Shown in pieces: positions 16,416 to 64,000 of a stretch of DNA of 64,000 nt. Position numbers and translations under genes: made by a program. Under the pieces are notes generated by a model. That model was not told where the DNA came from. It ran no database searches and worked only from the letters and a program-made list of their open reading frames with translations. Positions within the stretch are counted from its first letter, which is position 1; each line of letters opens with the position of its first letter. Source of the DNA: Thuidium tamariscinum (Eukaryota; Streptophyta; Bryopsida; Hypnales; Thuidiaceae); assembly GCA_947034885.2 (NCBI GenBank), contig OX344752.2:14446001-14510000 (forward strand). Direction: 5' to 3'.

Positions 16416-16822
16416 TATATTAGCATTGTTGCATTGTAAACTATGTCAAATCTAACTTTTGCACAAAACTTTTTTACATCACTAACTTACTTTAAAGGTG
16501 TAAAGACATTTGAATGGCCTTCTTCATTGATATAAACCATCAAATTTTTAAAAATAACCAATGAAAGTTCAAGAGTTCTTTGGGACAATTAATGGGACTT
16601 GAAGCATTTTCTTATTTTAAAGGTGGTTTTTTAAAGGGAATTTATTGGTATATCAACACTATGTACTCTCAATTTAAAATTTATGGAATATTGAATAAGT
16701 GTTGAAAATTAAAAAAACAATGTAGGTTGGTTTTCTCGTAGTAGATCAATATTCTTGCCCCCCAAATTGAAGTTTTGACTTGCAAAGTCCCCATGGAGCT
16801 TGCATTGTCCTCTAAGGATTAA

Positions 16823-17394
16823 CCCATTAATGTCCATGGTCAATTGTGGGGGTTGTAGCTTTCGTATACAATTCTTAAAAAGTGTCATTTTGTACCCTCT
16901 CAAAAGATGTAATTTTAAATTGGATTGAATAAATAAGTTTCATGGGGTAGGTCCTTAAACCATACAAAAATGAAAGTGATCCAATGGTTCACATCTTTGT
17001 AATTATTCTTCAAAGATTGATGTGTTATAAACACCCTTTGGCACTAGTGCTAAATACGGTTTGCTATGATTGGGTGTAAATTTGAGTATATGGTCCGAAA
17101 ATTGACCAAAAACCTTTGGATTAATTCCTTAATACATATACATAGTTATCCTTTACATTAAATATGCATTTCTCATTGAAAATTCCAATATGAAAGGCAA
17201 GGCCATTTCAAATTTGGACAAGCACAACTCATTCATTTCTGTACACATTATCTTGAAATTGGTTTTGTTAAAAGCATATGAAGACACTTCAAATGTATTC
17301 TTCTCTAATTTTTTGGAAATCAAATGTTCTACGAGTTGTAAGAGACAAAAAGTCTTGAAATCGACCAAAAAGTGGTCAACTAGTCGTTAATGGG
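16823..17394. mobile_element. TTAA-flanked TIR element E, 572 bp
   Basis: The left end reads TTAA then CCCATTAATG; the right end reversed reads TTAA then CCCATTAACG, so 9 of 10 terminal bases match. TTAA lies at 16819-16822 and 17395-17398. A weaker match (GGTCAA against GTTGACC) follows inside. No transposase frame exists. The structure fits a non-autonomous element that targets TTAA. Confidence 0.7.
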
Positions 17395-17534
17395 TTAAGC
17401 ACTCATGAAAAAATTTGATACAATTTAATTGGCATATTAATCTAAATTTTTTTGTCAATCTTTGTTTGAAGGAGAAAATTAACTCCACTATTAAGAATTA
17501 TAGTGTTATCTTTGGAATATATGCATAAAATAGG

Positions 17535-17795
17535 TGAAACCAATACCAAACTCTAACCTAATTATTCCACCAAAATATAGGGCCTTCATTGATTTTAGAG
17601 TGAAAATCTATGACAAAAATCTATGCCTCAAAAAGAAAGTGTGGAAAAGTACTATTATCATAGATCTTCATTTAACTTCACTTATAAGTGAAGTCAAGGC
17701 ATATACTATTGTCATAGATTCTCACTCTAAAATCAGGATAGCCTTACATTTAGGTGGTATTAGGTCTCTAATTAGTGTGGAATTCACCTACCTTA
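17535..17795. mobile_element. foldback element, about 260 bp
   Basis: The left arm carries 'attttagagtgaaaatctat' and the right arm, reversed, carries 'attttagagtgagaatctat'. Both arms also share 'ctaataccacc'-like outer and 'atgcct' inner sequence. The centre is a short palindrome ('acttcacttataagtgaagt'). Arms are about 75-80% alike, so it is old. No target duplication was found. Confidence 0.65.
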
Positions 17796-18313
17796 GCAAG
17801 GTCAATCTATTTCCTATTGTTGTAGCAATTCCTTGCCATAAGGTAAAACCACCTATTGTGGTCATAATAAAGAATTTGGCTTCATGTTCCTACTAAAATT
17901 TTCAATTTTTTTTACAAATGAAGATAAATAAGAAAAATAATAAGAGCAATTGAAATTATATTCTTTCAACAAAGTATGAATTTGCTATGAATTTTTGAAG
18001 TGTTAAGTATATAATTGCCCCAAATAGTCTTTAGACTATTCTGGAACCAATAAAATTTGAATCCATCATGGTCATTTGACAACCTAAAGCAGTTACAATA
18101 TTTTCCAAAATGAAAGGCCTAAGAAGTCAATTCTTGTAATGAATTCACATTGAAAAGTTAAAAAGTTCCTAATGAGGTTACAAATCACTCCATTACTATT
18201 ATATAAGACATTGATTATAGCCCAAATCTCACATATTGAAAAAATCCATAATGGGATTATTTCCTAAGTAATCACTATAGTTCATTTGATTGCAATGGGT
18301 TGTTCTACTTTGA

Positions 18314-18584
18314 GGTGGGTTCACCCAAAAGTGCAGTTGACGTTAAAGTGTCATCTACGGTTCATATACATTTCGAAAATCAATTATTTACATAAATTGT
18401 AGACGATGCTTTTGAAAACAAACCTTTGACCCTTAATAATATTTGTATATTATATCCAATTATTACATTCTTTGGTGCATTGGAACATGCTTTGACTTGC
18501 CAACATGACTATATGAAAATCTGAACAGCTTTATAGTTCTAACTAGGCACATTACCAATTTGTGGCCCTTTGGGTGAACCCACC
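18314..18584 (+). mobile_element. MITE, 271 bp, with clear terminal inverted repeats
   Basis: Ends are GGTGGGTTCACCCAAAAG and, reversed, GGTGGGTTCACCCAAAGG, matching at 16 of 18 positions. A sister copy lies inverted at 3274-3542. No coding frame. The target duplication is not evident, so the superfamily is unassigned. Confidence 0.85.
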
Positions 18585-18689
18585 GTTATATGTCTTAGAA
18601 AAAAAAATAGAAATCAGAATTGAGGAATACTTAATTTCTCGTTACATAGATTTTAGGATACCTAGAATTTCCAGTACGTAGATTTTTTC

Positions 18690-32269: not shown

Positions 32270-33412
32270 CTTGAAGGATGGACACAAGAAGAAAATCGGG
32301 GTTTCTACGATTGCGGTTAGCAACTAGTTTCGAAGTTGCATTGGACATTTGCAACTAAGTGAGAATTTGGAGCCTACAATTGCAATGAACAAGTCATAGT
32401 AGTTGCAATGTAGTTGTAAAATCAACAAGATTATTCGAACTTCATCGAAGAATTCTTCTGACATGGAATTTGCTTTTGTGCAACTTGTATGTGACTAGTT
32501 TGCAACTGGTTGACTTTGCAATTGGTTTGCAACTAGTTTTTGACTTGTAGATTTCTAGGTTTTCAAATTTTAATCTTCAAGATTTGTAGATTTTAAGAGT
32601 TTAATCTCAATGATTTGTAAATTTTAGAATTTCAAATCTAACTTTTTTTTTAAATTATCAAATCCAAATATTGATATTAAATAGATCTTACAAGTCTTAA
32701 AATTTCTTATACCCTAAAGATTTGTAGATTTCTATAGACTATAAATATCTACAAATTGTAGTAATATTAAAATTGTAATATCAAACTTCTTTACTTAAAG
32801 ACGCTATAACTTACAATTCTTATCCATCCAATTTAATGGTACTCTTGACAATTGATATGGGACAATTGATATAAAACTTGATTCTAATTGTTTTTCAGTT
32901 GTATTTTAGTTGTCTTCTAATTGCATTCTAGTCAATTTCTAGTTGCATGCTAGTAGTTTTCTTGTTAAAGTCTAGTGATTTTTTAGTTGTCTTCTAGTTG
33001 CATTCTAGTCAATTTCTAGTTGCATGCTAGTAGTTTTCTTGTTAAAGTCTAGTGATTTTTTTGTTGAACTCTAGTTGCATTATAGTCAATTTCTAGTTGC
33101 ATGCTAGTAGTTTTCTTGTTGAAGTCTAGTGATTTTTTTGTTGAACTCTAGTTGCATTCTAGTTGCATTTTATATTATATGCAACTATAGTTTGGCACAT
33201 TAAAATAAATTAATCTACAATAATTCTTTTGTTACATTCTTGTAGTTACCATAAACTTCAATCTACAACTATTTTGCAAGTACTAAGCAACTACAATAGT
33301 GTATACATCAAATTTGGTGCAAATACAGAAGATTGTAGTTGCAAGGAAGTTGCATAAGATACATAGTTGCATTTAGTCGGTTGTGGTGGACGCGATTTTC
33401 TTCTAGTAGGAC
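32270..33412. mobile_element. candidate CACTA-like non-autonomous element rich in TAGTTGCA motifs
   Basis: Near the left end is AGAAGAAAATCGGGG; near the right end, reversed, ACTAGAAGAAAATCGCG. These resemble plant CACTA termini (CACTA..AGAAAATCGC), but the outer CACTA is degraded on both sides. The interior is crowded with 'ctagttgcat' and 'gcaactagt' words on both strands, as in subterminal binding-site arrays of CACTA elements. No transposase frame. Assignment is inference. Confidence 0.5.
32915..33165 (+). repeat. tandem repeat, period 77 bp, about 3 copies
   Basis: The marker 'gtcaatttctagttgcat' starts at 32931, 33008 and 33085, exactly 77 bp apart. Units are about 90% alike and lie inside the candidate CACTA-like element. 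Confidence 0.92.
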
Positions 33413-34741
33413 TAGTGGTTGTGGAAATCATGCATTTTGATACCATGTGACATCATCTACTTTGAATAAGCCAACTATATTCATTGGAAGTTAAAGTACT
33501 GTAGAAGACCTCCCTTTCCACCTCTAATATTGAGGATGAATAGTTGCAGTTTTGTCCTACAAGGGAAGATTCTTTGTCATTCATCAGATACTAATTGTTC
33601 GCAATGTCCTTCGAGGGCTAGAGCGACAAAGCCAACTTTCATTCCAAATTCAAAGATTTCAATTTCAAGTTTGCATTGCAATCATTTTTTAAAAGCACAC
33701 TTATACATGAGAGGGCTCTAAAACTGAGCGGGCATTTTCAACCATCCAATAGGGGCTATGAAATGGATACTTGAATTTTGGGAAAATGAAATGTGGATTA
33801 CAAAAGAACTTGATAAGATTTGTTTTTATTTTCTCAATAGATGGTTTAAAAACCACACTAGGTTCATTGCTAACTAAGTGGCTAGGTGTCTACTAATTTA
33901 ATTCAAAATAAGAATTCATAGTTCAACTACCTTCTTATAAGTATTGAAAAATCTAAAATAATGATTAATTCAAGCATTCATTTCAGATTTAGAAAAGAAC
34001 ACTTTTAGAAACCAATTCTATTGCTTTATACATATTGCAATGCTAATTTTTGAATAAGGCCTAAATCTTTTTCAAACTATGGGTGGATGGGTTTCTAAGG
34101 GTCTATGATTACAAATAGGGACCTACACCAAATTGTATTTGAAAATTCACAACTAATTCAATAATGCTTCAAAAAATATGAAACAACTTGTGTTAGATTC
34201 CTCATCTATTTCTCTATAATTGAAAAATAAACTAAAAATATTTCCATCTCAGGAAGACACATGAAAAAGGCACATCTGTGCTTAAATTATCACTTTTTGA
34301 GCCTCTTACCTTATGTGCTAAACACTACAGTATTTGGTAGCCACTCTCAAAATTTGCAATTTGCATTCCTTGATCACTATTTGGATTGTAACACAATATA
34401 TGGAGAAACTAGTGGTGACTAGAAACGGAAAGTTGTGAAAATATATCAATATCCAATACAAGAAATAAATACAATTCTAATAGTGAATGCCTTTGCATTC
34501 CACCGCAGCTCTTGTTCCTTTACACACCAATTGCTCATCACCTGTGACCTATTTCCAAAATTGTCCCATCTGGATTATTGTAACCTAAAGTGTACATTAC
34601 TACCTCCATACACAGGAGCCTCGGTTCAATTTTAGCTAAATACAATTATTTTTCAGCACCTTGGAAATTCATAGTTCATTCATAAGGAGTTCAAGAAATA
34701 AACTTTAGAATCCCCTTTCAACTACTAGCAGTCCGATTTAA

Positions 34742-35596
34742 CCCCTAAACGTCTTGATCCATTGTGAAATGGTCAAACATCATGTCTGAACTAAATTTGG
34801 CCTTCTAAATTGTGTTCAAACAACAATATTATATTTTTATTACTTGAAACTAAGAATTGTATATCACTATGAGAAATTTCAATTTGTTTTGTGAAAAATT
34901 ATAATTGTTATCATTTTTCTTGCAAAAATTGAACATAAATAAGTAAAAATAGCAAAAACAATCCAAATTATTTGAATTTTTCACAAGTGGTACAAGTAGC
35001 AATGGAAATTAGTGTGAAAAATTTTCAGTTGGTTATTTTATTTTTTACATCCAAAACAACCACAACAAAGACCTTGAAGTCAAATTCAACTATCAAATCA
35101 AATTTATCCTTTTATTTAATTGATTTATAAAATTTTGATATTTTTCACTAGTGGGAAAGTGCATTTTCTATTTATTCTGTTTTTTTCAATAATTTTGACG
35201 GATAAATAAAATTATTGTGATTTTCGTAAGCTAAAGGTGGAAATAAAATTATATCAATTAGAAAATATATTAGAAAAATTTGTAATTTTTACTATAAATC
35301 AAGGATAGAATGAAAAATATAATTTTGTAGTTTAAATTCAAATTAAATTTTTTTAAAGAAAATATGAATTAGAAACACACTATACTGTGTTATTTGGATT
35401 CTAACATATGGAGCTTTCAGTTGCAATAATTCTTTCAATTTTTGACATTTTTCAAAATTTCAAAATGGAATAGAAAGAAAACTTGTCAAGATTCATGTTC
35501 TTAGTTTAAAATATATACCAATAATGGATATTTTGAAAGTTACAATCAGGGTTGACCAAGGCGCATCCACTTTTTGGATGCACGGACCTTAAAGGG
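34742..35596. mobile_element. TTAA-flanked TIR element D, 855 bp (weaker)
   Basis: The left end is TTAA then CCCCTAAACGTCTTG; the right end reversed is TTAA then CCCTTTAAGGTCCGTG. Flanking TTAA lies at 34738-34741 and 35597-35600. The termini agree only in part, so this is the least sure of the five. The interior is AT-rich without a frame. Confidence 0.45.
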
Positions 35597-35640
35597 TTAA
35601 GTCATCCAACAAAAGTTTTTCCAACTTAATGATAGGAATC

Positions 35641-36243: not shown

Positions 36244-36459
36244 CACTAGTAGAACCCCCCGTTTAATGTGACAAGGCCTAATTTTTCTTGATGGATTTTG
36301 CTAGGCATCAAAAGTAACTATCCGTGTTTTTATGTCAACAAAAACGTTCAACACAACATCAATGCTGACATAAAAACATGGGTTGTTACTTTTGATGCCT
36401 AGCAAAACCCATCAAGAAAAATTAGGCCTTGTCACATCAAACATGGGTTTCTACTAGTG
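36244..36459. mobile_element. CACTA-type MITE, 216 bp, with 3-bp target duplication
   Basis: It starts CACTAGTAGAA and ends with the inverse TTCTACTAGTG. It is flanked by CAT at 36241-36243 and 36460-36462. The element is almost entirely two inverted arms of about 95 bp (shared 'acaaggcctaatttttcttg', then 'tgctaggcatcaaaagtaac'). CACTA ends plus a 3-bp duplication are diagnostic of the CACTA (En/Spm) superfamily. Arms are about 90% alike. Confidence 0.93.
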
Positions 36460-36510
36460 CATCAAATTGCAACCATGCTCTGCCATGAGCAACTCAAGGT
36501 GTCTTGTCCT

Positions 36511-36700
36511 CACTACAAGAGAAAGGGATGTTTTAAGTAGTGTCCTAGACATCACGTCTTTTAAGTAATGTCTTTTAAGTAAAATTTTACTAAAAGACAG
36601 TCTTTTCAGTAAAATTTTACTTAAAACCTTACTTAAAAGACATTACTTAAAAGATGTGATGTCTAGGACACTACTTAAAACACCCCTTTCTCTTGTAGTG
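36511..36700. mobile_element. second CACTA-type MITE, 190 bp, with 3-bp target duplication
   Basis: It starts CACTACAAGAGAAAGGG and ends with the exact inverse CCCTTTCTCTTGTAGTG. It is flanked by CCT at 36508-36510 and 36701-36703. Inverted arms share 'tttaagtagtgtcctagaca' and a string of 'cttttaagtaa' words. It is only 51 bp from the previous MITE but different in sequence. Confidence 0.94.
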
Positions 36701-39700: not shown

Positions 39701-41200
39701 ATTGAAGAATAATTTTTAGTATCCAAAATTGTACAAGTAAGAGACCCTTTTTTTTATCCATATATAGAAAACATGTTTTTTTGGTTTAGTTTTCCTTCTC
39801 TATAGATATACACCAACAATAGAAACATATTTTCTAAGCTAATTTACATATTTTTAATTGTATGTACTTTGTTGTTGTCAAACCAAAAAAATGAAGATTA
39901 GAATATTTTAATTTCGTATAGAAATCTGAAAATATTAATTTGATTTAAAAAATCCAACTATTTTTTTGGTTTCATTGGTTCAATATCTTAGAAGCTAGCT
40001 ATATAAAGCAAGATACTTTGAGTTCCAATATATATTAGTGTAAAAGCACCTTGAGTTCCTACATATGTTTCCAAAGATAACCATTTGAAATTTTCTTGTA
40101 ACAATCAACTAAAATGTGGTAAACCCTAAATCCTAAACAAAAATTAAGTATTAAATTGTATTTAATACAAATTTAAAGTTTATATTAAATTTTAACAAAA
40201 TCTAATAAGGATAATGTCAAAATTGAATGAAAATCCTACAAAAAATAAATAAAGTTGGCTATTTTCTACTAATAGTGTGCTACCAAAACAAAAAAAGGAT
40301 TCTTATATGTACCATTTTGATGCTAGGTATCGAATATAGACTATTGGATTTCATGGTTAGAAAGTGTACATTATTGGCAAAAATTCTTAGACCCAAAATG
40401 ACTCAATCTATCACTAAAACAATGAATTTCAACTTATAAATGCCTCATATGCACTACATTTTGGTGTTGACAAAATTTTTAAATTAAACCAAATGTCACC
40501 AAGAAAAATTACCATAATTTCTTGCAATTGACTCTTCACATTATCTTGTAAGACCATACACCATTGGTTTTGTCAATTCCTTGAGTTGTTACATTAAAAT
40601 CTTCTTTAACATCTTCTAGATTTTAAATTTTTTTAGTACTTTAGATTATATCTATATCTTTTATTCAATATTTGATTATAGTGAATCTTAGTTGTTGAAT
40701 GATGTGATGAATGATGTCAAAATGTTACAACTTGAAAATACAAGCATAAGAAATTTTTTAGTAATATCTAGATAAGGCTTTAAAAACAAAAGTCTATTAA
40801 TTACCAACCACAAAACTCATATATTAGAGTCATGTGCAATTTTTTTCTTAAATTTTACTAAATTATGTGTTGCATCAAATCTAACTATTTTCAATTTAGT
40901 TCTTGAGATTGTGATCACTCTCAAAATATAGTAATTCAAAATTTGTTGTTCCAACAATAGATTTAGTTTAAATATATATTATGTATTAAATTTTTATTTT
41001 TTACATATGAAGACAAATGTACGAAATGGTATGAGAGAACATTTGAAGTTTCTTTTGATAAATTTTACAATTCATGTTGACATGGTCAAGTTTGCATCAC
41101 ATAGATGCTTGCACACTATTAATACATTTGATTGTTGATATTACATTTTAGAAAAGTACAAAATTGGTATTTTGAAGAAATTGACTTCTAAGAGGAAGAA
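36704..41200. other. AT-rich gene-free stretch
   Basis: 4.5 kb of AT-rich DNA. I found no gene, no clear TIR pair and no long tandem repeat. Short palindromes and A/T runs are frequent. It may be old decayed repeat. Confidence 0.6.
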
Positions 41201-41868
41201 CTTCTAAAGCGCTCATGAATCATGATTGTACAAATTGTGAAGAGTGTCAATCTATTGTACCACACTTAAAAGAAATTTGCTAATCAATGCAGTAGCCCTT
41301 AGTTTATGCATGACAAACATTTGAGTCTTATTGATCCCATGATTTTATATAAAAATTTACTAAATGTTGATCTTTTGATTTTATAGTATTGAATAAAACT
41401 CGACTCCATTATAATTAATTGCACGTGTAATACTATATAAAACATCATTGAACCTTCTTGACTATAATGGAATAGAAACTCAATATTCTAAGTATTCTAA
41501 TTATTTAGAGCATGGGCTTCTAAACCAATGATAAATCTTTAGATAAACCTCACTCTTATTAATTATAGACCAATGTCACAATCTTTTGTTCCATACAAAT
41601 GAATTTTTCTAAATTAATGATTGGTTAGATTCTTTGATCCAATAGTACTATCTTGAACTTCACTTGATTCTTTAATCTACTATATTGTATAAAATCTAAA
41701 TTTACCTCAAATCTTTTGTCCCATAATACAGTGAGAAACTTCATTGAATTTCATTGTACTATGATGGAATAAGGCCTTCATATTTGTAGCCTTTTAACTA
41801 CTTAGAACAAGAAATTCCAAACCTTGATGTCCCAATCTTTTGTTCTATTCAAATAAATATTCTTTTCA
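41200..41868 (-). pseudogene. decayed 231-bp coding-repeat units, group 1
   Basis: Read on the minus strand, this matches the 44225-44614 frame. Examples are plus-strand 'ttatgcatgacaaa', 'cattgaaccttcttgact', 'gagcatgggcttctaaacca' and 'tgtcacaatcttttgttcc'. About two to three units lie in tandem but are broken by many stops and shifts. The run ends exactly at the TTAA-type element beginning at 41873. Confidence 0.55.
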
Positions 41869-41872
41869 TTGA

Positions 41873-42575
41873 CTCCTTAAGGTTTTTGACTATGTTTTCA
41901 CAAAAAAAACTCTCTATAAATACCATTCACTCTAGTACAAGTTTCAAATTTTAGAAAAAAAAAGAATCGTGGATACATATAACCATAGGATCTTATAATA
42001 TGCTAATTTAAGAAGATGTGGAAAAGATTTCAGAAATTTCCACATGTAAATTGCCAGATATTATCCATTCAATACATAAAAATCCTTTTTTGACACTCCC
42101 CAAAGTGGATAGTTGTACTTCAATAGGTCACATTTATATGAAAAAATGTCCAAAATGGTGCTTACTATGTAGATTCATTCTTCAAAACAACTTGGCTGGA
42201 TGCTTGAAAAATTTCAGAGCATTTGGAATTGTACAACATATAGGTTAAAAATAGTAAGTATATAGAAATGGACAACTCCTTAAAATACTAAATTGTTAAC
42301 AATTTATTTATAGAATTGAAAAATGCCAATCCAATTTTTGAAATGTTGTCATAAAATATCCATAACCAAGGTTACCAAGCTACCCACTAAGCAATGAAAA
42401 CAACATATCATACAATAACTTTTAACCATGTTTTCAAAATTGTTGGGGCATTAAAGCTACTACTTGGGCACATGCTTTATAGAAATTTCAAAGAAAAAAC
42501 TGAAAAAATCCATTTGTAGTGAATTGCCTAAAATTGCTATGTTGCCCCCCAAAACAAAGTTTAGGGATTTAGGGG
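41873..42575 (-). mobile_element. TTAA-type TIR element B, 703 bp
   Basis: This is a full-length inverted relative of element A (62918-63859). Shared blocks are 'ggtttttgactatgttttcac' at one end, 'taaattgttaa' and 'gttgtacaattcca'-type blocks inside, and 'gggcattaaagctac' then 'cttgggcacatg' near the other. Its right end reads AGGGATTTAGGGG then TTAA (42576-42579). The left TTAA has decayed to TTGA. No transposase frame. Confidence 0.78.
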
Positions 42576-42579
42576 TTAA

Positions 42580-43105
42580 CCTTTAAAGGACCAAGGCACA
42601 TTTGCTACACAAATTGTGAAAAACGATTATTTTTTAAGGCAATGAGAAAAAAAATAGAAAAATCCCTATTTAAAAAAAACTCAATTATATAAATTCATAT
42701 TAAACTATTATATATAGAAATGTGGGGATATTTTCTTAGAAACTTTGATGGATTGACCACACAAATTAAAAGACTATAGCATTTCATATTAGAATTTTTT
42801 TTAGAATATGTATAGATTTTTTTTACATTTGCATCTTATATCATATAAATTATATACTTGCTAGATTTTAAAAATATAGGAGTTTTGCACATGCTATTCA
42901 AAGGTGCTCAAATTGACAAAAAAAATTTAGGGCAATATAAATTTTGATCTAGTCACTCAATTAGAATGAAAATTATATTTACATTAATGGTGTTTATGTA
43001 CATGATTGGTGTCAAAATTTGAAGAAAAGTCATTGAAATATGACTTCATATGCACCTGCTTGAGATCACTTGCGTACATTTAGTAGTCATTTGGTCCTTT
43101 AGAGG
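42580..43105. mobile_element. TTAA-flanked TIR element C, 526 bp
   Basis: Ends are CCTTTAAAGGACCAA and, reversed, CCTCTAAAGGACCAA, matching at 14 of 15 positions. TTAA flanks it at 42576-42579 and 43106-43109. The left TTAA is also the right boundary of element B. The interior is AT-rich with no long frame. Confidence 0.82.
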
Positions 43106-43569
43106 TTAACATAGCAACTTCTTCATCTAATTATGATAAAATAGTTAGTAAGATCTTTTGACTCTATATTGGCATGATAAACCACACGTAAATGTGTTGT
43201 ACTTTAATGGGACATGCACCTAGTATTCTAAGCTCATTGATTTGATAAAGCAAGGACTTCTAAGGTAGAACCACCCATTCCTAACCAACACCCTATAGCC
43301 AATCTATAGATTGACTTATTTTCAACCAAGGCTAGAATGTGTTTTTTTCTCTATTTCAAAGTTGGAACTAAATGTTCCCGACACATGTTCCAATGTAGTG
43401 AACAAGAAAATAAGAAGCAATGAATGGAAAAGTAGTTTTTGAATGATTGAAATTGAGAGAATCTTGAGATTAACTATTGATCTACTATACTTTTTGCCTT
43501 TCAAAATTTATAGTATTTTTAATTCATGAAATAAAATTACCAAAGTTTTTGCAATTTCCATCATTTCTA

Positions 43570-44060
43570 TTGTTGTACCTTTGAAATTATTTGCTTTGCC
43601 TTGCAATACACCAAATCATGTCTAGAATACCTTAAATGATTGGTTATGGGTGATTCTACATTAATTCTAATCCAAAGATGATCCTTGCTCTTAGTAATTG
43701 TTGACAATTGTCACAATATTTTGTCTCATTTGAATAAAAAATTTGTCTCATTAATGTAGCTACCTCGTTAAGTATGACAAACATATAAGATAAAAGTACC
43801 TATTTCAAACAACTCCCTTTTAATGGATTTATAGGCTGACCTATTATAGACAACATTTAGATGCACTATTTATTGAAAGAATTCTCTGTTTGTATCTTCT
43901 CGTTGGATCATCTCTCTTCTTTTATTGCTGAGGAAGAAGTGCCAAAGCTAACCGTAATAGGTGAGACTATCAAACCAAAATAGATCCTAATGAAAAATCT
44001 GTATTTATATTGAATGAAATATTCATTTATGAGGATTTTATTTTTTTATTTTTTTATTTT
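43570..44060. other. AT-rich stretch with possible degenerate repeat unit
   Basis: Around 43680-43770 are words such as 'gtcacaatattttgtctcat' and 'attaatgtagctacc' that resemble the 231-bp coding-repeat family. The match is too short to define a unit. A (A)TTTTTTT run lies at 44037-44066. No gene is seen. Confidence 0.4.
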
Positions 44061-44129
44061 TTTGCATTGTTCCTAATTCTATATTTGCACACATTGAGCA
44101 CCATTTCACAATGAATTCTCCACATCTTA

Positions 44130-44620
44130 CAACCTGAAATGCTTAGGTTATCTATTATAAGTACTTCTACCTTAATCCTATTCATTGATGTCATTGTACT
44201 ATATAAGCCCTCACTAACCTTGATTCATTGATCTCCAATACTAAGTAAAACTTCACTAAGACTTCTTGAACTCGGAGGGAACAAGGCTTTAGTATTTATA
44301 TTGATGAACCTTGATTTTACAAATTGGATACATGTGTTATAGTCTTCTATTACATTTGGATCAAAAATTTCTCTTATTAATGCTAGGGTTCTTTCATGCA
44401 TGATAGAGGGATGATGAATCACTCTATTTGACTCTATAGAAATTTGTAAAACATCATTGAACCTTCTTGAATTGATAGAAATGAGATTCAATATTTTGAA
44501 GACATTGTTGACTAGGGCAAGGGCATCTAATCTATTGAGGCATGAACTTTGATTATATAAACTATAGACAAAAGTAGCAACCTTTTGTCCCAATTGAATT
44601 TTTTTAAAATCCATACTATA
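44130..44620 (-). pseudogene. best-preserved part of the decayed 77-codon repeat array
   Basis: A 129-codon open frame lies at 44614-44225 on the minus strand. It begins MDFKKIQLGQKVATFVYSLY and includes RLDALALVNNVFKILNLISI, SRRFNDVLQISIESNRV, HPSIMHERTLALIREI and CIQFVKSRFININTKAL. RLDALAL to NINTKAL is 77 residues, equal to the roughly 230-bp spacing of the other copies. Alternating hydrophobic residues suggest helical hairpins, as in armadillo/HEAT-like proteins, but I do not recognise the family. It could be a host repeat-protein pseudogene or part of an unknown element. Confidence 0.5.
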
Positions 44621-45067
44621 TATACATACTATATATAAGTGACTACTTTTTCACTTTTTATCCTTCTTGTATAAGTTCTTGAATGATTATTTTGAAAATT
44701 TATCAATGATAGAGAGTTGAAACACCTGTAAAATATCTATGTTAGAAATTCAAGTAGAGCATTCATTCTTCTTCATATTGATATGTTTCATGATTTTTGT
44801 TGAAGCTTCTTCAACAAATATTGATAAGACAAAATGCACTTTTTATAGTAGTCCTCCTTTTTCTAGTAGATCATTAAGCATTTGAAGATTTACCTTGGAA
44901 AAACAACGCACACTAGGTGGTCACTAAAGTAGCTGACAAAAATTTATCATTTTCTTATCAATAGCTATATTTTTCATTTTTACAATATCTAGAGAGCAAA
45001 CCCTAGTATATAAAAAGGGGTCAAAGGAAGGGTTAATTACAAATAGTATAATTTTAAAAAACACAAG

Positions 45068-45110
45068 GGTCATTGCAAGAAACACCGACCACTTTTGTAG
45101 CACTTTGTAA
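45068..45110 (+). mobile_element. solitary transposon end
   Basis: The sequence GGGTCATTGCAAGAAACACC resembles the ends of the 2298-3031 element. A partner end was not found before the assembly gap, so the element may continue into the gap or be truncated. Confidence 0.4.
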
Positions 45111-45519
45111 AACTTGTTCTTGTCTAATGCTATAACTTTTGATTGATGAATCCAATGTCCAAACCAAAAAATCTATTTCTAGAATTTTTGATTGCAATCA
45201 TATTACATATTTTTTAGAATTAAAAGAAAATCATTTTATATTTAAAATTTATTTTTGTTAATTTGTCACACTTTAAAGATTAGGGGTTTTCAATACAATT
45301 GACTAGTTTAAATTAATGATTTTTGGTTGAAATTTCTGTGGTATGTTTTTATAGTAGGTAGACATGTTCTTACCAAAGTTCATCTAAAAAAACATTATTT
45401 TGTGACCTCTACATTAGAGCAAACAAGCCTCCCTTGCATGCACACTTCAAAACATTCAAAATGATTTTGAACTCATTTTTTTAGTCAACCCTCATCACCA
45501 TATAGTCTTCTCAAATGGC

Positions 45520-45720
45520 AAATTTTTAGTTTTGTTCAAAATTGTTTTTCTTATTTTTTACAAATTAAAACGTCAATGTATGTATTTTCTTTACTAGAAT
45601 TCAATGTCCAAGATGATGTCCTAGAAAATACATACATTGGAGTTTTAATTTGTAGAAAATAGGAAAAACAATTTTGAACAAAACTAAAAAAATTTAGGAC
45701 ATCGTCTTGGACATTGAACA
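45520..45720. mobile_element. foldback structure beside the gap
   Basis: Left arm 'tttttagttttgttcaaaat' and right arm (reversed) 'ttttagttttgttcaaaatt' continue through 'tacaaattaaaac' and 'caatgtatgtattttct' for about 75 bp each. A second, offset pair ('caatgtccaagatgatgtcc' at 45602 and its inverse near 45700) interlocks with it. The repeat may extend into the gap region. Confidence 0.75.
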
Positions 45721-45885
45721 TCCATCAACTTGAACCTCCATCAAACTAAGTTTGGATACTTCAAGGAATTTTGCCTTGAGTTAGTTTTCTCCAACTCCAA
45801 CTCTTGGTTTGACCTTCATTGTACACACTTTATGATTAATAATCCTCAAAAGCCATCCAAATTCATCTTAATCTTTTCTATCTTT

Positions 45886-46385
45886 NNNNNNNNNNNNNNN
45901 NNNNNNNNNNNNNNNNNNNNNNNNNNNNNNNNNNNNNNNNNNNNNNNNNNNNNNNNNNNNNNNNNNNNNNNNNNNNNNNNNNNNNNNNNNNNNNNNNNNN
46001 NNNNNNNNNNNNNNNNNNNNNNNNNNNNNNNNNNNNNNNNNNNNNNNNNNNNNNNNNNNNNNNNNNNNNNNNNNNNNNNNNNNNNNNNNNNNNNNNNNNN
46101 NNNNNNNNNNNNNNNNNNNNNNNNNNNNNNNNNNNNNNNNNNNNNNNNNNNNNNNNNNNNNNNNNNNNNNNNNNNNNNNNNNNNNNNNNNNNNNNNNNNN
46201 NNNNNNNNNNNNNNNNNNNNNNNNNNNNNNNNNNNNNNNNNNNNNNNNNNNNNNNNNNNNNNNNNNNNNNNNNNNNNNNNNNNNNNNNNNNNNNNNNNNN
46301 NNNNNNNNNNNNNNNNNNNNNNNNNNNNNNNNNNNNNNNNNNNNNNNNNNNNNNNNNNNNNNNNNNNNNNNNNNNNNNNNNNNNN
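45886..46385. other. assembly gap, exactly 500 N
   Basis: A round-number placeholder. The gap lies between two inverted-repeat structures, which are hard to assemble. The true missing length is unknown. Confidence 0.99.
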
Positions 46386-46677
46386 AGTAGAATATCTATT
46401 TGTTAAAAACTTTGAACAAAAAAATGTGGGAAATCAAACCAAGTTTCATCTCCAAAAATCCACTTGATATTTCAAGTCTTCAATCAAAAGTTATAAACAA
46501 ATTTTAGAGAGGGGTTGGAAGGGACATTTTTTCTTACAATTTAAACTTCTATGAAATTTGTTTATAACTTTTGATTGGAGACTTGAAATTTCAAACAAAT
46601 TTTTGGAGATGAAACTTAGTTTGATTTCCCACATTTTTTTAAGTCAAAGTTTTTATAAAAAGATATTCTACTATGCC
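46386..46677. mobile_element. foldback element, about 290 bp, abutting the gap
   Basis: Both arms (left direct, right reversed) read 'agtagaatatct', 'aaaactttga', 'atgtgggaaatcaaac', 'aagtttcatctccaaaaat', 'atttcaagtct' and 'caatcaaaagttataaac'. Arms are about 115 bp and roughly 88% alike. The inner part resembles the foldback element at 1317-1676. The left terminus may be cut by the gap. Confidence 0.82.
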
Positions 46678-47639
46678 TAAATGAGGTCTAAAATTTTAGT
46701 TTTAATACAATTTTTATTTCAAACTTAATTGTGAGCAATTGAGCTCCTACTTCTAAATTACATATCCTATATGGGTTGTTCTTCTTTCTACCACCCATAT
46801 ATATATTGATAACTTATCTTCTCTTTAGACAACCAAAATCAAGATATTGATGCCAAATAGTTAAAGATTACATTGGTATAACACTCAATGGATTCCTTGG
46901 ATTTTTGACATACAATCTGATACATTATATACAATTTTTTTTCAAAAGTTCAAGAGTTTGTAGTGATTGTCAATTGGAATATAATTTTTTTGAACATTTC
47001 ACTTCTCCATTATTGTGAATTTCCTTAAGAAAAAATGAAGAAAATACATATCATTTGAATAAGAAATCTATTAAAAAAATCTGAAATTAATTAATATTAG
47101 GGCCCTTTGTGTCTTGAGTATTCAAGTATTCAAGTACTCGACTTTTGTATTATACGCAAGGATCATGTGCATTTAAACAACTTAGAGGATGGCCCTTGTA
47201 AATATTATATCAAATTAAATGGACCAAAAATTTAGGTGAAGACAAATTAAATAAAACGAGATGCAGTTGTATATTTTTTTTTAAAGAATTTCAAAATGTA
47301 TATGAAGGATTGAAACACCTATGCATAATTTTTATAACTCCATATAAGAAGTGCCTTCTAATTAAAATCAAAGTTCATTTGTTTTGTTTCATTGAACTTT
47401 TTTGGCAAAAAACACCAAAAAATTGGGTAGCTTGGCCCTTAATAAATGCATCATAACAAATTATAATCTTCTTTTTAATGCTATTATTGTCTTCAAAAAA
47501 TATTAATTTCATCTATATAATTACATTTTTCTATCCTTGTTGAAAGGGCTATAAGATTTTTCTACATTAAAACACATTATATCCTTTGAGATTGGTGTAA
47601 ATGTACAATAAGCCATTAGAATCATGGTCATATAATATG

Positions 47640-48570
47640 GGAGTTGTGTACTAAGGCTTTATACATGCTAGACACTCAAGTGGTTAGCCTATTTTTTTTA
47701 TTTTGTATAAACATCATTGAATTTAGTTGTAATAGATGTTATATAGAGTTAATATTCTAAATACTTTAACTACTTAGAGGAAGGGCATCTAAACCATTGA
47801 TGAACCTTGATTATTCTCAAAAATTGAAGACAAATGATATAATCTTTTGTCCAATTTGAATGAAAGTTTATTATAATAAATGTTGTGTCCCCATTATGCA
47901 TGCATGCTTTAGGGTTGCTTAGTCTCTTTGATTACATGATATTGTGTAAGACATCAGTAAACCTTCTTGAACTATGATGAGATGGGGATTAGTATTTGAC
48001 TACATTGACTACATTGACTTTTTAGAGCAAGGACATCCAAACCACTAAAAAACCTTGATCTCACAAATTGTGCACCAATATTGATCAATGTCTTTTGGTC
48101 TATATGAATAAAATTGTCCTCTAATCAATATCACTGCTCTTTTATGCATGACATACAATTAGTCAATTTCTTTCATCCTAAAGTACTCTATTGAACATCA
48201 TTTAACCTTCTTGTACAAACAATGGGATACAAACCTAGTATTCTAAATACTTTGGCTATTTTGAGCAAGGGCTTCAATACCATTGATGAACCTTATTTGC
48301 ACAAATTAGAGACAAAATGTCATAGTCTTTTGTCTTATACAAATTTTAAGAATCCCAAAAATGTAGCAACCATTTCATGCATGACAAATGCTTGATATGT
48401 CTTTAATACCATGGTACCATGTAAAGCATCTAATGTTATAATACAATGAGAGAAGGACTCAATATTTTGAGCACTTCACCACTTTGAGTATGTACATCTA
48501 ATCCTTGGATGAACCTTATTTTCATGGATTACGATCAAATGCTAGAATCTCTTATTCCATGCTAATGAAT
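47640..48570 (-). pseudogene. decayed 231-bp coding-repeat units, group 2 (about four)
   Basis: Plus-strand phrases 'tagtattctaaatacttt', 'gagcaagggcttc' and 'cattgatgaaccttatt' recur near 47750, 47990, 48230 and 48470, spaced about 230-250 bp. In minus-strand translation they align with the preserved frame at 44225-44614 (for example RRLNDVQ against RRFNDVL) but contain several stops per unit. The orientation is the same as in all other groups. Confidence 0.6.
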
Positions 48571-50570
48571 ATTTACAACCAACCCCTTTTTTTGGCACCA
48601 TGTGGCTAGAAAGCACCATTTGAAAAAGTAGGGAAAAAAAGCCTCAAGCAAAAAAAATTTAAATTAAAAAAAAAATCACCTAGGATTTTCAAGGTGTTGC
48701 CAAAAAGTTACAACCCTAGCCGACGGTGATCACCAAGAATCTTCATGGCATAGCACTTCAAATTCAAAAGCTTGAGCCACTTTCTTCTTGGCCCGAGGTA
48801 CTTTCATTGTTGTGCATTTGTTGCCAAGCCTTTGCCATTAGAAATTTCGTTCATCACCAAAGGAGCAGAAGCATTAAATTTGCAATTGCCAAATTCTACA
48901 CAAGGCCTTCCACCACTTTGCTTCTTTCATTTCTACCCTTCCTCTATTTATTGCACTTCGTCCCATCCCTCATTTTACTGTCATAGCCCTTACTGTTTTG
49001 CTGAATACAAATAATGCATTCATGCTACTAAGCTTGGTCATTGCACTTTCATATTGCTTCGTCATGATGGAGTGTGTAAGCATTTGTGTCCACTCCATGG
49101 TGTTTTTATTTTGCAATGATTATCATATTTGGCAAGTAAGAGACTACAAGTGGTGATGGAATAAAATTGGATATGTGGACAATTTCAATATGGTGTTCTT
49201 CTCTCTCTCTTGTTGCTTGTGATGAGTTTTCAATTGTAATGCATTTGCTAGCTGTTTTGCTTAGTTTGTAAGCTGTGCTTTGGTTTTGGAATTTCTTGAC
49301 ATCTTTATGGTTTGACAAAGGCTTGCCAACAATGTTTGTCAATAGTGTTCTTGTTTTGTCATGGCTTAAGGTTTTAAAGAAGGGATTTCTAATGGTGCTT
49401 GCAATCTTAAATCATTGCAAAATCATTAACCTTATTGTTTTTACATGTGTTGCTTGTTTTTGGCAAAATGTATAAGTCAAGTCTAGAAAGCAAGGACCAA
49501 GGGTTGAGGTCTTTAAAGGATTCATACACTTAGAACACTGAAAGCAAGTTTCATTAATAGAATTCTGCCATTAAGGAATATGAAGGTCACTCATTGAATT
49601 CCATAGAAGACTAAGTTTTGATTCTTTTAGGCTTAAGGTCTCTTTATTGAAGGTGTTTCAATAATCACAAGGTTTGATTATTTTTATTGGTCGTACTACA
49701 TTATTATTTTTTCTTTGATTTGGATGATTTGGATTGTCCCTATGAATATCTTCTAGATCTCTGGTTGTAGCAAGTTATACAATTTTAGTTCAGTTGCATT
49801 GGAGTTGTTGGTGCAAAATCTTTGTGAAAATTATAGAAATCAATATGATTGTCCATCATAGTTGACTCTCTACTTCCATTGCTTACTAAGCTTGCACGTC
49901 TTCATAGTCACTCAAGCACAAGGTCTTTGATGCTTTAGAATATTCCTAAGTACTCATGTATTATTGGCATTGACTTCAATTTTTACTTTAGGATTTTAGA
50001 ATTGATGTAATATACTACTTAAATGTAGAATTCTCTTGATGTGCTCATAGTCTTGGATTGATCAATACTTTGTGTTTTTGTTGCAAGGGTTTAGGATTTC
50101 CATAAACATCATCCATTAATGAATTTCAATTTTCTTACTTCATATTTTTGTACTAGTTTATACAATGCTAATTTTTCACTACATACTATGTGAGATGGTG
50201 CCCAAGTCCATTCAAAGCACATAATGGGTTTATATAACTTTCCTTGTAACAAATCTTTGTAGTGCTAGAAAATATTACAATGTTTAAGAAATTTTGCCTT
50301 TTTTGCCTTTTTTGCCTTTTTTGCTTCTTGACAATTCTACATAGTGCCAAAATTAGTCACCTATTTCAAGCAAATTGTGCTAAATACATAATCTTTGGAT
50401 TTCATTGTCATTAGCATGATTCATTGAAAAAAATCTAGCCCTTACCATGTTAGTAACAAAAAGAATGACAAGCATAGTCAGTTTAACTTCCTCCCAAAAA
50501 AACCAAAAAAAAGGTTGGTCACAATGTTCATTTGTCATATTCATATGACAAATGACAAATGAACATTGAT
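48571..50570. other. gene-free stretch, partly less AT-rich
   Basis: Around 48730-49480 base composition is closer to genic and two overlapping frames (80 and 86 codons) are open. Neither has a motif and neither is favoured by splice signals. A short TTTTTTGCC repeat (about four units) lies at 50296-50328. A perfect small hairpin, 'gttcatttgtcat'/'atgacaaatgaac', sits at 50527-50566. I see no gene. Confidence 0.5.
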
Positions 50571-50749
50571 AGATTGTTTAGAAGAAAGGATTCAAAAATC
50601 TTGATGAACTTTGATCTCAAAGAAGATGGACAAATTTCATGGCTAATGTTTTCAGAGGGCAATCTATCTCTCAATAACTACACAATTTTTTTGAAGGAAT
50701 ATTTGATAATAGATTTTCTTATTTTCAATGGATGAAATTGCTCAGTTGT

Positions 50750-51115
50750 TCTAAAATTGATGAACAATATTGATCTATTATGCAAGAATTCATACACTTT
50801 TGGATGGATATGTGTATATTTATATATATTCTATATATTTCATCTATGTAAATAGCTTCACCATTCTAATAGAGATTTTTTTCTACATTGCCTAAAAGTA
50901 ATAAAAAAATAGTGACAATCTTGTTGTACACAAATAAATTTCCTTTAAGAACTAATGTAGTAGTCACTTTATGCATGACAAAAGATTGGTCAAATTCTTT
51001 GATCTTATAGTACTAAGAAAAAACTCAATGAACCTTGATTCACTGGTTCCACAATACTATGTAAAAGGTTACTAAACCTTGTTGCACTAGGCTTAAATAA
51101 GGACTCCATCTTGTA
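50750..51115 (-). pseudogene. decayed 231-bp coding-repeat units, group 3
   Basis: Plus-strand 'aatgtagtagtcactttatgc', 'catgacaaaagattggtcaa' and 'ctaaaccttgttgcacta' align with the same repeat family in the same orientation. One to two units are recognisable and badly decayed. Confidence 0.45.
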
Positions 51116-52430: not shown

Positions 52431-52439
52431 ACCTTAAGT

Positions 52440-53217: not shown

Positions 53218-53249
<32 letters not shown>

Positions 53250-59100: not shown

Positions 59101-59113
59101 GATAAAACCTGAT

Positions 59114-59319: not shown

Positions 59320-59742
59320 GACCCAGATTCTAAGTGAATGTCTGGTGGGGCGTTGCTCTCACATTCGATGAAGTGCGTGTGTCTGCGTTGCTCAGGGCAG
59401 GGCAGAGCAGCAGGTGAGCTCTTGCGTTAACTTTGTGCTTTAAGGTAGAAGGCTCTTAAATGGAGCGGGTTCTAAAATGGTGCCCTATCTTAAATGTACA
59501 GTAGTTGTACATGTTGCTTTTTCATAGCCTTCAGCAGTGTACTGACAGTGTACATTGTAGCTAGGGCACCATTTTACAGCCCTATGCCCTTTCAACTTCA
59601 AAATTTGATAACTAATTCAAAAAACCTCAGAAAAATATGAAATGACTTGGGTTCGATGTCAATTCTACTTGTTTTTCAAGGAAAATTTACTGAAAAATAT
59701 TTCTAGAGGTTTTACCTCCCTGAAATTCTGTTTCAGCCCTTA

Positions 59743-60240
59743 GAGCATCCTCAGTCCAACCCTGTATATCGACCCGGTATCTATATAACTAACTTTTGAA
59801 CAATAAATAATTAGAAACTGAAAATTGTCTCATTGGAAGTGCATCCAAAAAAACTTGGAGAAGGTGCAAAAAAATTTAAAGATAAACATCGGATAAGTAT
59901 TTCAAAAGCAAGGTAAAAATCTGAAATTATAGAGGTCTTAGCAAAGCACAATTACCAAAGCAAACTTTGGCCATTGACTCTCCAAATGTGGCCAAATTTG
60001 AAGGGTCAATGGCCAAAGTTTGCTTTGGTAATTGTGCTTTGCTAAGACCTCTATAATTTCAGATTTTTACCTTGTTTTTGAAATACTTATCCGATGTTTA
60101 TCTTTAAATTTTTTTGCACCTTCTCCAAGTTTTTTTGGATGCACTTCCAATGAGACAATTTTCAGTTTCTAATTATTTATTGTTCAAAAGTTAGTTATAC
60201 AGATACCGGGTCGATATACAGGGTTGGACTAAGGATGCTC
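59743..60240. mobile_element. young foldback MITE, PIF/Harbinger-like, 498 bp
   Basis: Two arms of about 240 bp are near-perfect inverted copies (about five differences seen, so about 98% identical) around a short unpaired centre near 59990. Termini are GAGCATCC(T/C)(C)AGTCCAA-like and are flanked by TTA at 59740-59742 and 60241-60243. A 3-bp TTA duplication and GAGCATC-type ends are typical of PIF/Harbinger MITEs. No coding frame. Confidence 0.93.
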
Positions 60241-61223
60241 TTAGATGGTGCATTATAGGACCTCTTACCTTACATTCAAGTTAGTGGATTGGAGTTCGGT
60301 GTTTGAGCAAATGCTCATACCAACCCTTTTGGTGGGCGAGTTAGTGCCAATTTGCACCAAGAATATTCTCTTGGTGAAACCTTTAAAAAATATTTTGCGT
60401 TAGTATTTTGCCAGAATAAACTTCATGCATTTTGCCATTAACTATTTGTACACAAGTTTAGAATACGGTATATTTCTTGAGTCTTGCCAAAGAGTGCAAT
60501 TTCCCAATAAAACTTGGTTGCCATTTGGACTTTGAATTGTACATAGATTGTAACCCTTAAAACGACATTGATATTGTATGTGTATTGTATGTGTAGGTCA
60601 GTTTCGTGAATGACTTGGGAAAATTTGGGAAATGTCAAAATTTAGAAAATTATTTATAACTATTTCTAAAAATTTGAAAAAATTGTTTTGGAGGAAAATT
60701 AGAAAAAGGATCAGATTTATGCATGGTTAGAAAGAATCAATCCAAAATTAGGAGTATCCTCATAAAGAGCCAAAAATTAAAAAATTCCTATTTGTATGCC
60801 AAACTGTTGAATTGCAAAAAGTAAACTATTTTGGCATAAATTGTTGAAATAAACCTACACTTATGGAATCTTATCTAGGCTCAATCAAACTTTGATAGAT
60901 TTCTATATAAAAATATAACATAAATTTGATATTTTTCACAAGTAGTAGTATATGTCTAAAATTTATTTTCCATTTTTTCATAATTAAAAACATCAAAAAC
61001 ATCAAGTTGAGTTCAATATGATTTTCTAGTGAAGTTTCTTTGTAAAAATCATTGTAATTAAAAACTTGCTTTAAATAGAAAAATCAAAATAATAGTAACT
61101 TCATGGTGTAATTGATGTATTCTTTGAATTCACACTAAGAGAATTTTGATAAGGTAGACAAGCCTATTACCACCTTGATTTGCAATTTGGCTATGTTGGT
61201 GCCAATTCCAACAAGGGCACATA

Positions 61224-61470
61224 TTTTTTAGAAGTATGTGCATGTTTTACATATCAAAATCAAGTGGAATTATATATTTCCAATGAAAACTATAATTTCT
61301 ACAAAATTTTTAGAAGTGAGTGCATGTTTCATATATCAAATTGGAGTGCAATTATAAATTTCCAATGAAAACTATAATTTCTATAAATTTTTTAGAAGTA
61401 TATATATTTCACAAATCAAACTCAAGTAGAATTATAAATTTCCAATCAAAACTATAATTTTTGACAAAAT
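61224..61470 (+). repeat. tandem repeat, period about 82 bp, three copies
   Basis: The marker 'tttttagaagt' occurs near 61225, 61308 and 61389. Each is followed by 'atatcaaa', 'ggaattataaatttccaat' and 'aaaactataattt'. Units are about 80-85% alike. Confidence 0.85.
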
Positions 61471-61664
61471 TGCCTCTAGACTAGGGTCATAAACAACTCA
61501 TAAACATCCCATAACCACCTAATCAACAATTAGATATTCTCTATTTAAGGAATGACATGTAATTCCAACTTCTCATTAAAAGCCTAATTTTGTCATATAA
61601 TGAAGGGAATTGGAGAGGGGGGGGGGGGGGGTTGCAAACATAATGGATTAGTCAACTTTAGAAA

Positions 61665-61880
61665 TGGTTCAAAAGTGGTGTATTTTGAATTTTCAAGATG
61701 CTATCTTCAAAGTATTATGGGAATTACAATTTTGGCAATTTTGTAAAAAAAATCAAATGGAGTAAAAAATAGATTATCAAAGCTACATATTTTTATTTAA
61801 ACTTAAAAAATTCAAATCACAAATTATATACAAATTCTAGTTTTGACTTCCAAAATGCTTGTGCATTTTGAAATGTCCTA
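61665..61880 (-). repeat. dispersed repeat, inverted sister of 7830-8050
   Basis: In reverse complement it carries 'attttggaagtcaaaactag', 'tttgattttttttacaaaat', 'gccaaaattgtaatt' and 'gaagatagcatcttgaaaat', in the same order as at 7830-8050. The two copies are about 54 kb apart. Confidence 0.65.
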
Positions 61881-62917
61881 TAAGAGTCAATTGTAGTATC
61901 CCGTGTAAAAAATTAAATTAAATAGTCCTTGGTTCATACAATTATAATAGAGGTACCTATAACCAATTAAATATGCACATGTAAACATGATCTAGGGTAG
62001 TACACGACGAAGCAAATATTTTCGAAGGTACATTGATAGAAATGATGGAGATTGCAAATTTTTGGTAATTTTATCTCTTAAATTGAAATTACTAAGAATT
62101 TTGAAAGGCAAAAGTTGAGCTTGATTGATGACCAATATCTAGAGTCATCCAATTCCAATAATTCAAGAATTGCTTTGCTGCTCATTACTTCCTTATTTTT
62201 TGCTCACTTATGTGACATTAATTTATTGGTCCAAACCTTGAAAAGATACAAAGATGCACATTCCAAAGAAAAAATAGAAATCCGTTTCAATTTTAGTTGG
62301 GAATAGAATACTTTATTGATTGTTGAAGGGGTGCTTGTTAATAATAGATACCTCTACCATAACAAGTTCACATAAATGTATAGCTATTGCTTGTAAAAGT
62401 ATCTTTGATAAATCTTAAAATAGGGACATTCAAAATATCCACTTTTAATGTCTACCATGGTTACTATTATTATATTGTTCCAATGTTATATGCACTTGTT
62501 AAGCAACTTCAATCCCCAATGCCATTGATATTGATCTATCTTCAATCCTAGGCCTCCCATTCTCCTTTCTAAACATGACAAGTTGAGATATAAAAACATG
62601 ATGTTTTTCTCCCATAAGAGAGATTCATAATTTTCATACTTTTTGAGTTTTGTTATGTGTGCTAATAAATTTTAATTTTTTTTTTGAATAGAAGGTCCTT
62701 TTTTAATGCAAAATCATTTTCTTTTTCTTTTATAATACTTGAAAGTCCTTTTGAGGTTTGCATTGTTGACTTTGCATTGGATGAAGAATTTTTGAAAAGT
62801 CAGTGGGATTGTAGAAGGCTCCTAATGCAATTTGTAATGGACTAGATTTAGTTGATATTCAAAGTAGCAGTATTTGAATATGATTTGGATAAATAGTAAA
62901 AATACCCAATATTTTAA

Positions 62918-63859
62918 CCCCTAAAGGACCAAACTGTGTTTTTTGGCAACTTAGCAATTTCGGGCAGCTCATTACAGATGGAGTTTTTGGTTTTTTTCTT
63001 TGAAATTTTGACACAACATGTGCCCAAGGAGTAGCTTTAAGGCCCAACAATTTTCATAACTTTTGACTACATAGTGAAAAAGTCATTGGCTGATATGTAA
63101 TTTCTCTACTCGGTGGGCAGCCCGGGCAGCAAAAAAAACTTCTTCAAAATTACTTTTTAAGAAAATTAAAATTTGAAATTGGTTTCTTTGATTTTTATCT
63201 AAATGTAAACCTTTGAATCATTCCATTTTGATTAATGAGTCAAAAGTTATGAGGATTTTTAGTTTGAGGTAGTTTCGGCTAGTTATAAAATCTCTACACT
63301 ACAAAAAAAGTTTGAAATTCTTTATTTAATTCAATTTTTAATATTTTTGAAAAAAAATAAAAACATTGGGTGTATATTGTTTAACACAACATTACAACCA
63401 TTGGGATTGTCTTCTTTTAAATCTATAAATAAATTGTTAATAATTTAGTATTTTGGCTCATTTTCTACATCTTTCTACTTACTATTTTTTTCCTATATGT
63501 TGTACAATTTCAAATGATCTGAAAATTTTGAAGCATGTAGCCAACTTCACTTGAGAAATGAATCCAAAGAGTTACAATCATTTTGGACTTTTTTTCACAC
63601 AAATATGGTCTTCTAAAGTGCAGCTGCCCGGATTTCCGCAGTGGTAAAAAAATTATTTTGTCACTTCAAACACTAATATCATGCAATCTACATGGCGGAA
63701 ATTGCTGAAATTCTTTCCACGTATTCTTAAATCTGTGTTCTAAAAGATCCTACAGTTACTTTTGTCAAAAAATGATTTTTTCTAAAAATTTGATAGTTGT
63801 CTAAAAAATGACAGTTTTGAAGCGGTTTTGGTGAAAACATAGTCAAAAACCTTTAGGGG
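62918..63859 (+). mobile_element. TTAA-flanked TIR element A, 942 bp
   Basis: Both ends read CCCCTAAAGG inward, a 10-bp perfect inverted repeat, and are flanked by TTAA at 62914-62917 and 63860-63863. The interior matches element B (41873-42575) in inverted orientation along most of its length. It has subterminal 'cgggcagc' and 'gcagcccggg' words. No transposase frame, so it is non-autonomous. Confidence 0.85.
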
Positions 63860-64000
63860 TTAAGTGCTTTGATCACATACATCCTCATATTCATTGTCTT
63901 TGATTCTAAAGTATCATTGATTTTGGGTGTCCTTCTCTTAATGGTAAATCTAGTAAGGCCATTGTCAATGCAACTACAAAATTGAATGGTATCTATACTT

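Follow-up and report, generated by a model that had tools for sequence, protein, structure and literature searches.

Within a window of 64,000 nucleotides (nt) from Thuidium tamariscinum (contig OX344752.2, positions 14,446,001-14,510,000; positions below are those of the window), a first-pass annotation had described five TTAA-flanked elements as candidate piggyBac-like miniature inverted-repeat transposable elements (MITEs). We conclude with high confidence that these elements, termed M1 to M5, are non-autonomous MITEs of the piggyBac superfamily, residing in a nuclear genome that belongs to a seed-free land plant, probably a moss; full-length piggyBac elements lie elsewhere in this genome. 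All five were located where they had been claimed (16823-17394, 34742-35596, 41873-42575, 42580-43105 and 62918-63859). TTAA stood outside both ends of M1, M2, M4 and M5; in M3 the right-hand site is TTAA and the left-hand one TTGA. Past these sites the flanks were unlike each other in every window element.

Counted with both TTAA sites, M1 occupies 580 bp of the plus strand (16819-17398; TTAA at 16819-16822 and 17395-17398; ends CCCATTAATG and CCCATTAACG), M2 863 bp (34738-35600, plus; TTAA at 34738-34741 and 35597-35600; ends CCCCTAAACG and CCCTTTAAGG), M4 534 bp (42576-43109, plus; ends CCTTTAAAGGACCAA and CCTCTAAAGGACCAA) and M5 950 bp (62914-63863, plus; TTAA at 62914-62917 and 63860-63863; ends CCCCTAAAGGACCAA and CCCCTAAAGGTTTT). 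M3 measures 711 bp on the minus strand (41869-42579), and CC...GG termini were present on all window elements except its left end, which starts with CTCC. A scan of the window for TTAACC...GGTTAA pairs (150-2000 bp spacing, at least 9 of 14 end bases matching) returned four pairs, namely M1, M2, M4 and M5; 100 dinucleotide shuffles of the window, themselves richer in the two hexamers (mean 40 vs 28), gave a mean of 0.36 pairs and a maximum of 3. M3 does not stand as a subfamily of its own: it aligns to M5 at 73-80% on the opposite strand and is therefore a decayed member of the M5 family. M3 and M4 have a single copy of TTAA in common (42576-42579), the right TTAA of M4 lying at 43106-43109. 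A similar arrangement was found at locus L019, where a transposon of the coding family described below as family 1 abuts an M5-like MITE across one TTAA. A single common TTAA would be the outcome expected of insertion into a pre-existing TTAA.

A profile search of the genome with PF13843 (DDE_Tnp_1_7) gave 659 candidates, of which 116 were scored, all above the cut-off (best E value 5.7e-80), and matches were obtained in 0 of 14 control genomes, a set of unspecified make-up. Eleven copies on five contigs (L017-L027) constitute family 1, a transposon of 5,096 bp including both TTAA, and each of the 11 resides at its own TTAA site with unrelated flanks. Its 1009-amino-acid (aa) product, P0001, contains PF13843 (E 5.7e-79) and matches the solved chains of piggyBat (3.2e-27) and piggyBac (1e-22). 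The TVDE, TTDN and GVDT motifs of P0001 supply three aspartates that align with the piggyBac chain in the arrangement of the catalytic DDD triad, and we take the aligned residues to have these catalytic roles. A cysteine- and histidine-rich C-terminal tail is visible in P0001 and in the L045 frame, where Pfam reports no separate zinc domain. P0001 also has a conserved N-terminal stretch at approximately residues 160-230 (around EVVSVQR, then CAGAV) that bears no Pfam name.

Beyond family 1, a TTAACC...GGTTAA pair surrounded the transposase at 9 of 9 other coding loci, picked by end similarity, and the bases that follow differed among them (CCCTAGAAGGACG, CCCTTAAATGACCC, CCCCTTAGGGCCGG, CCCCTTAACGCCGG and others). 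The right end of L032 was ambiguous, with three candidates. Furthermore, a TTAACC-type end was present in seven of eight further downstream flanks of transposase domains, the L039 flank having none. Two piggyBac loci, L033 and L034 (C8:23933884 and C8:23941055), lie about 6 kb apart in opposite orientation and are 99.9% identical over 5.6 kb.

Across the 11 family-1 copies, only 4 of 5,096 columns were variable, 28 of 55 pairs were identical, and both long frames were intact in every copy; therefore, to judge from sequence, transposition was probably very recent. Near-identity of this kind could also arise from contamination or assembly artefacts, an explanation to which we assign a negligible probability: the 11 almost identical copies sit on five contigs, each at its own TTAA with unrelated flanks, paralogous empty copies exist for some of these flanks, and the genome contains thousands of related ends.

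A link between the window and the coding elements came from C3:41121592-41122737, a transposase domain whose 3′ flank ends in TTAACCCCTAAAGGTTTTGG, the right end of M5. The corresponding coding element (C3:41119643-41127215) is 7,573 bp long, starts at its 5′ end with TTAACCCCTAAAGGACCAAA, and contains a 630-aa frame matching PF13843 at E 1.9e-78. At the 5′ end it aligns with the first 221 bp of M5 (223 columns, 71%, E 4e-25), and near the other end over 174 columns (70.7%, E 7e-10), the last 18 bp being exact. A second locus, L046, shares its right end with the C3 element and matches it at 99% identity along 4,681 bp. M5 is a shortened relative of the 7,573-bp piggyBac element, and M5 and M3 both have the features of piggyBac MITEs. 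The full-length, transposase-encoding element with matching ends that the first-pass annotation had called for was accordingly found for M5; for M1 and M2, no such partner turned up in a sample drawn from the 116 listed domains and comprising 20 loci (11 of them from one family), 8 downstream flanks and 2 further loci. M1 and M2 have about 10 terminal bases in common with the coding elements sampled, and their assignment rests on the TTAA sites, the CC...GG termini and the fact that this genome encodes piggyBac transposases. L032 (CCCATTAACGCC) was considered as a partner of M1 and rejected, as only about 11 terminal bases agree; the similarity between M2 and L042 (67.5%, 154 columns) was likewise discarded, the stretch falling outside the coding element, past its candidate 3′ end.

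To establish whether TTAA is the target duplication, as the first-pass annotation had argued, the flanks of 12 coding transposons were joined at a single TTAA and searched within the same genome; L019, abutted by a MITE, was omitted. Junction-spanning empty sites were found for 4 of the 12 queries. In 7 of 7 alignments from these four coding elements, the junction held one 4-bp block, and exact TTAA was present in four (L018, L025 twice, and L023), one of which extends no more than about 18 bases to the left of the junction. Filled and empty sites in this genome, those of coding elements and not of the window MITEs, therefore bear out TTAA as the duplicated target. Were TTAA part of the terminal repeat, an empty site would hold no TTAA, and this arrangement is disfavoured for that reason; a TA or TWA duplication is disfavoured because all four bases would not stay together as a block. 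TA or TWA targets, as for mariner and Harbinger, are ruled out for the coding elements by the 4-bp empty sites. Two further candidates were not counted: that of L007 in L006 (68%), which was too diverged and had a trimmed end, and that of L034 in L021, which stops within about 15 bp of the junction. Together, a TTAA duplication, CC...GG termini, a DDE_Tnp_1_7 domain and a DDD triad place the coding elements in the piggyBac superfamily.

A TTAA target alone is not unique to piggyBac. We therefore weighed whether the window elements could be MITEs of another TTAA- or TA-targeting superfamily (Kolobok, Sola3, Tc1/mariner with TTAA context, or PIF/Harbinger with TWA) to which the piggyBac transposases of this genome are unrelated. 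Such an origin would be compatible with M1 and M2, for which no coding partner was identified, and with the fact that the empty sites examined belong to coding elements, not MITEs. It is at odds with the correspondence of both ends and the subterminal blocks of M5 to a PF13843-encoding element, with the four-base block retained at the empty sites, which makes the coding-element duplication 4 bp, not TA or TWA, and with the TTAACC...GGTTAA pairs and TTAACC-type ends found around and downstream of the transposase domains. For the window elements as a whole we consider another superfamily improbable, and in the case of M5 and M3 this possibility is nearly refuted. Kolobok and Sola3, for which no family-specific search was made, were set aside for M5 given its PF13843-encoding relative.

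Several results weigh against the piggyBac reading and against TTAA as the duplicated target. Eight of the 12 joined-flank queries returned no junction-spanning site, three of the seven empty sites were one base off TTAA (TGAA, TCAA and CTAA), and L017 lacked an exact TTAA site, its only alignment having CTAA. Where M5 and its coding relative align, identity is only about 71%, so M5 did not arise directly by deletion from the C3 copy. M4 has only the terminal 20 bp (95%) in common with the C3 element and nothing longer, and no coding partner with long common ends was found for M1 or M2 in the loci sampled. Moreover, in four of the eight M1 loci read with flanks, the match ends short of one terminus. 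We nevertheless favour the piggyBac assignment.

The full-length elements would provide the machinery for the window MITEs. Their DDD transposase would bind the CC...GG ends, excise the element, probably seamlessly, and reinsert it at a TTAA, leaving one TTAA on each side; the transposases of the coding elements would mobilise the window MITEs in the same way.

We quantified the MITE families in the genome by DNA search; candidate numbers are first-look counts, not counts of confirmed copies, and the matches scored were the best of them, with the query itself included. The M1 search gave 744 candidates (best 40 at 82-100%), the M2 search 1,148 (best 40 at 93-100%) and the M5 search 9,944 (best 40 at 92-100%, 39 over positions 1-950 and one over 2-950, with two further pieces at 73 and 80%). 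For M4, there were 360 candidates; the 39 main non-self matches were at 70-75%, none of them full length, and 17 further pieces reached 66-84%. Among the scored matches, M2 and M5 thus seem to have young copies, M1 intermediate and M4 old ones. M2 had been called a weak copy, a description that does not apply to it as a family member, as 33 of its best 40 matches run over the full 863 bp. The pattern TTAACCYYTAAAGGACCAA had 3,628 exact matches in the genome (1,835 and 1,793 on the two strands), and its reversed form had 0 and 0; the corresponding counts for TTAACCCATTAAYGTCC were 16 and 0. Flanks were read for 8 M1 copies, 7 M5 copies and 11 copies of one coding family. TTAACCC and GGGTTAA stood at the ends of three of the M1 loci, and TTAA with a variant next base in one, and all seven M5 copies read at both ends had TTAA on both sides with unrelated flanks.

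In addition to the transposase, the coding elements carry a second conserved frame. All 8 distinct elements examined have, upstream of the transposase and on its strand, a frame of 225-352 aa, within which some 120 aa form a conserved domain. Compared with the first of these eight domains, five show 43-66% identity or more and three only 19-25%, these three being backed by phmmer (E about 1e-9 to 1e-12 against the L045 domain). A genome search with one accessory domain gave 92 matches. Of these, 45 precede a listed transposase domain on the same strand at a distance of 1.4-3.4 kb, accounting for 45 of the 116 such domains (random mean 0.075), and no accessory match was found within 6 kb of a listed domain in any other arrangement. 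In 6 of 6 comparisons among L018, L028, L030 and L032, the proportion of synonymous differences (pS, 0.70-0.88) far exceeded that of nonsynonymous differences (pN, 0.21-0.30), with synonymous sites near saturation so that only the direction is meaningful; the transposase domain behaved likewise. The frame therefore appears to be conserved under purifying selection. AlphaFold2 modelled the domain as all-helical (mean predicted local distance difference test score 85.7, predicted template modelling score 0.81). No significant match was obtained in Pfam (best E 0.14), PDB sequences (0.37), Foldseek against PDB (2.2) or a viral library (0.49), and the best NCBIfam match (E 0.086) fell far under its cut-off.

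Just 3′ of the accessory frame, L018, L028, L030 and L032 all have AGGTGAG at one and the same alignment position; within poorly conserved surroundings, this invariant motif is a likely splice donor. The upstream frame could accordingly be the first exon of the transposase gene, spliced at this motif, which we regard as a tentative alternative to a separate protein. The L030 frame reads on across the donor, and splicing to a candidate acceptor would keep the phase of the transposase frame, as judged by eye; the L030 intron, however, would measure only 46 bp. A stop codon ends the frame before AGGTGAG in L018, which stands for 11 near-identical copies, and in L028 and L032, and the accessory and transposase frames are about 2 kb apart in L029 and L045. 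We infer that these elements form a piggyBac lineage equipped either with an accessory protein or with an alternative 5′ exon. The product of the frame would most likely be a helper protein or an alternative N terminus of the transposase, needed for transposition or for controlling it. Chances appear even that these elements form a two-protein piggyBac branch in the plant lineage, in which an all-helical accessory protein, kept by selection across eight divergent elements, is required for or regulates transposition, the branch having been recently mobile and having seeded thousands of TTAA MITEs. Two observations count against the preferred reading: 47 of the 92 accessory matches have no listed transposase domain nearby (116 of 659 candidates being listed), and in three of the four related elements the frame stops shortly before the donor-like motif.

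The piggyBac transposon, a staple tool of genome engineering, has been described chiefly from animals. The elements described here have in common with animal piggyBac and piggyBat the TTAA duplication, CC...GG ends, a PF13843 DDD transposase, a cysteine-rich C-terminal tail and the matches to solved chains; they differ in their plant host, in a transposase frame of about 1000 aa with a long N-terminal part, and in the conserved second frame upstream. Such an upstream frame is not known from animal piggyBac elements. PIF/Harbinger and other two-open-reading-frame DNA transposons combine a transposase with a second conserved protein frame, as do the coding elements here; unlike them, our elements differ in transposase family, target TTAA instead of TWA, and carry an accessory domain with no significant Pfam, PDB or Foldseek match. 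Angiosperm piggyBac-type MITEs are likewise short, high in copy number and assigned by ends and target site; in contrast, a single genome here yields a coding relative that has both ends, together with coding-element empty sites and full-length copies that are intact and nearly identical.

The first-pass annotation held that piggyBac is poorly documented in land plants. In the sources consulted, this is true of the detail given but not of the listing, since the superfamily appears in plant repeat tables and reviews. PiggyBac is named among plant class II superfamilies (PMC10794571), among superfamilies present in all groups studied (PMC4438587) and among angiosperm MITE superfamilies (PMC10004981); 1,230 copies are listed in a fern (PMC6890710) and one 75-bp copy in a grass (PMC8319324), and the 4-bp duplication and CC..GG ends are stated in PMC10045372. 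PMC10619864 was dropped as a source, its matching passages containing only the word "piggybacking". In the open-licence literature searched, nothing was found on a piggyBac element with a second open reading frame, which is weak evidence of absence. If our reading is correct, an intact, very recently mobile plant piggyBac would offer a natural system for studying how the transposase deals with plant chromatin. The accessory frame, if protein-coding, would be a new component of the superfamily and directly testable, and for insertion polymorphism within the species the MITE load would provide a set of markers.

Gene content fits the proposed host. Frames in the window encode Maf, BEACH, kinase and aldo-keto reductase domains. 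Genome-wide, dynein heavy chain exons gave 24 matches at about six places; flowering plants are not known to have dynein heavy chain. There were 27 NAC-domain exon matches and 49 chlorophyll-binding matches, one of the latter best matching chains of 7ksq, 7xqp and 8htu, which are Physcomitrium structures, and another being CP24-like; CP24 is not known outside land plants. The light-harvesting frame at C9:17062330-17062900 (L070) has the LHCI-11 chain of 9vfj as its best PDB match and appears to resemble LHCSR-type proteins, which would presumably fit a non-vascular host.

Rfam gave 0 matches in the window at gathering thresholds. A near-perfect palindrome occupies 59739-60244, with two 253-nt arms that are 97% complementary and no loop; beside it, 59441-59744 is directly related to flanks in L024 and L034, which also match L005, L019 and L021. 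Hairpin-forming inverted repeats at 36244-36459, 36511-36700, 45523-45690 and 46386-46672 (arms 68-125 nt, 85-95% complementary, short loops) are candidates for other fold-back elements or small-RNA precursors. A tandem array with an 11-bp period and about 30 units lies at 32853-33185. Finally, degenerate direct repeats of about 35-100 nt extend over 10 kb (41189-51036), enclosing M3 and M4, and look like a decayed repeat-encoding gene.

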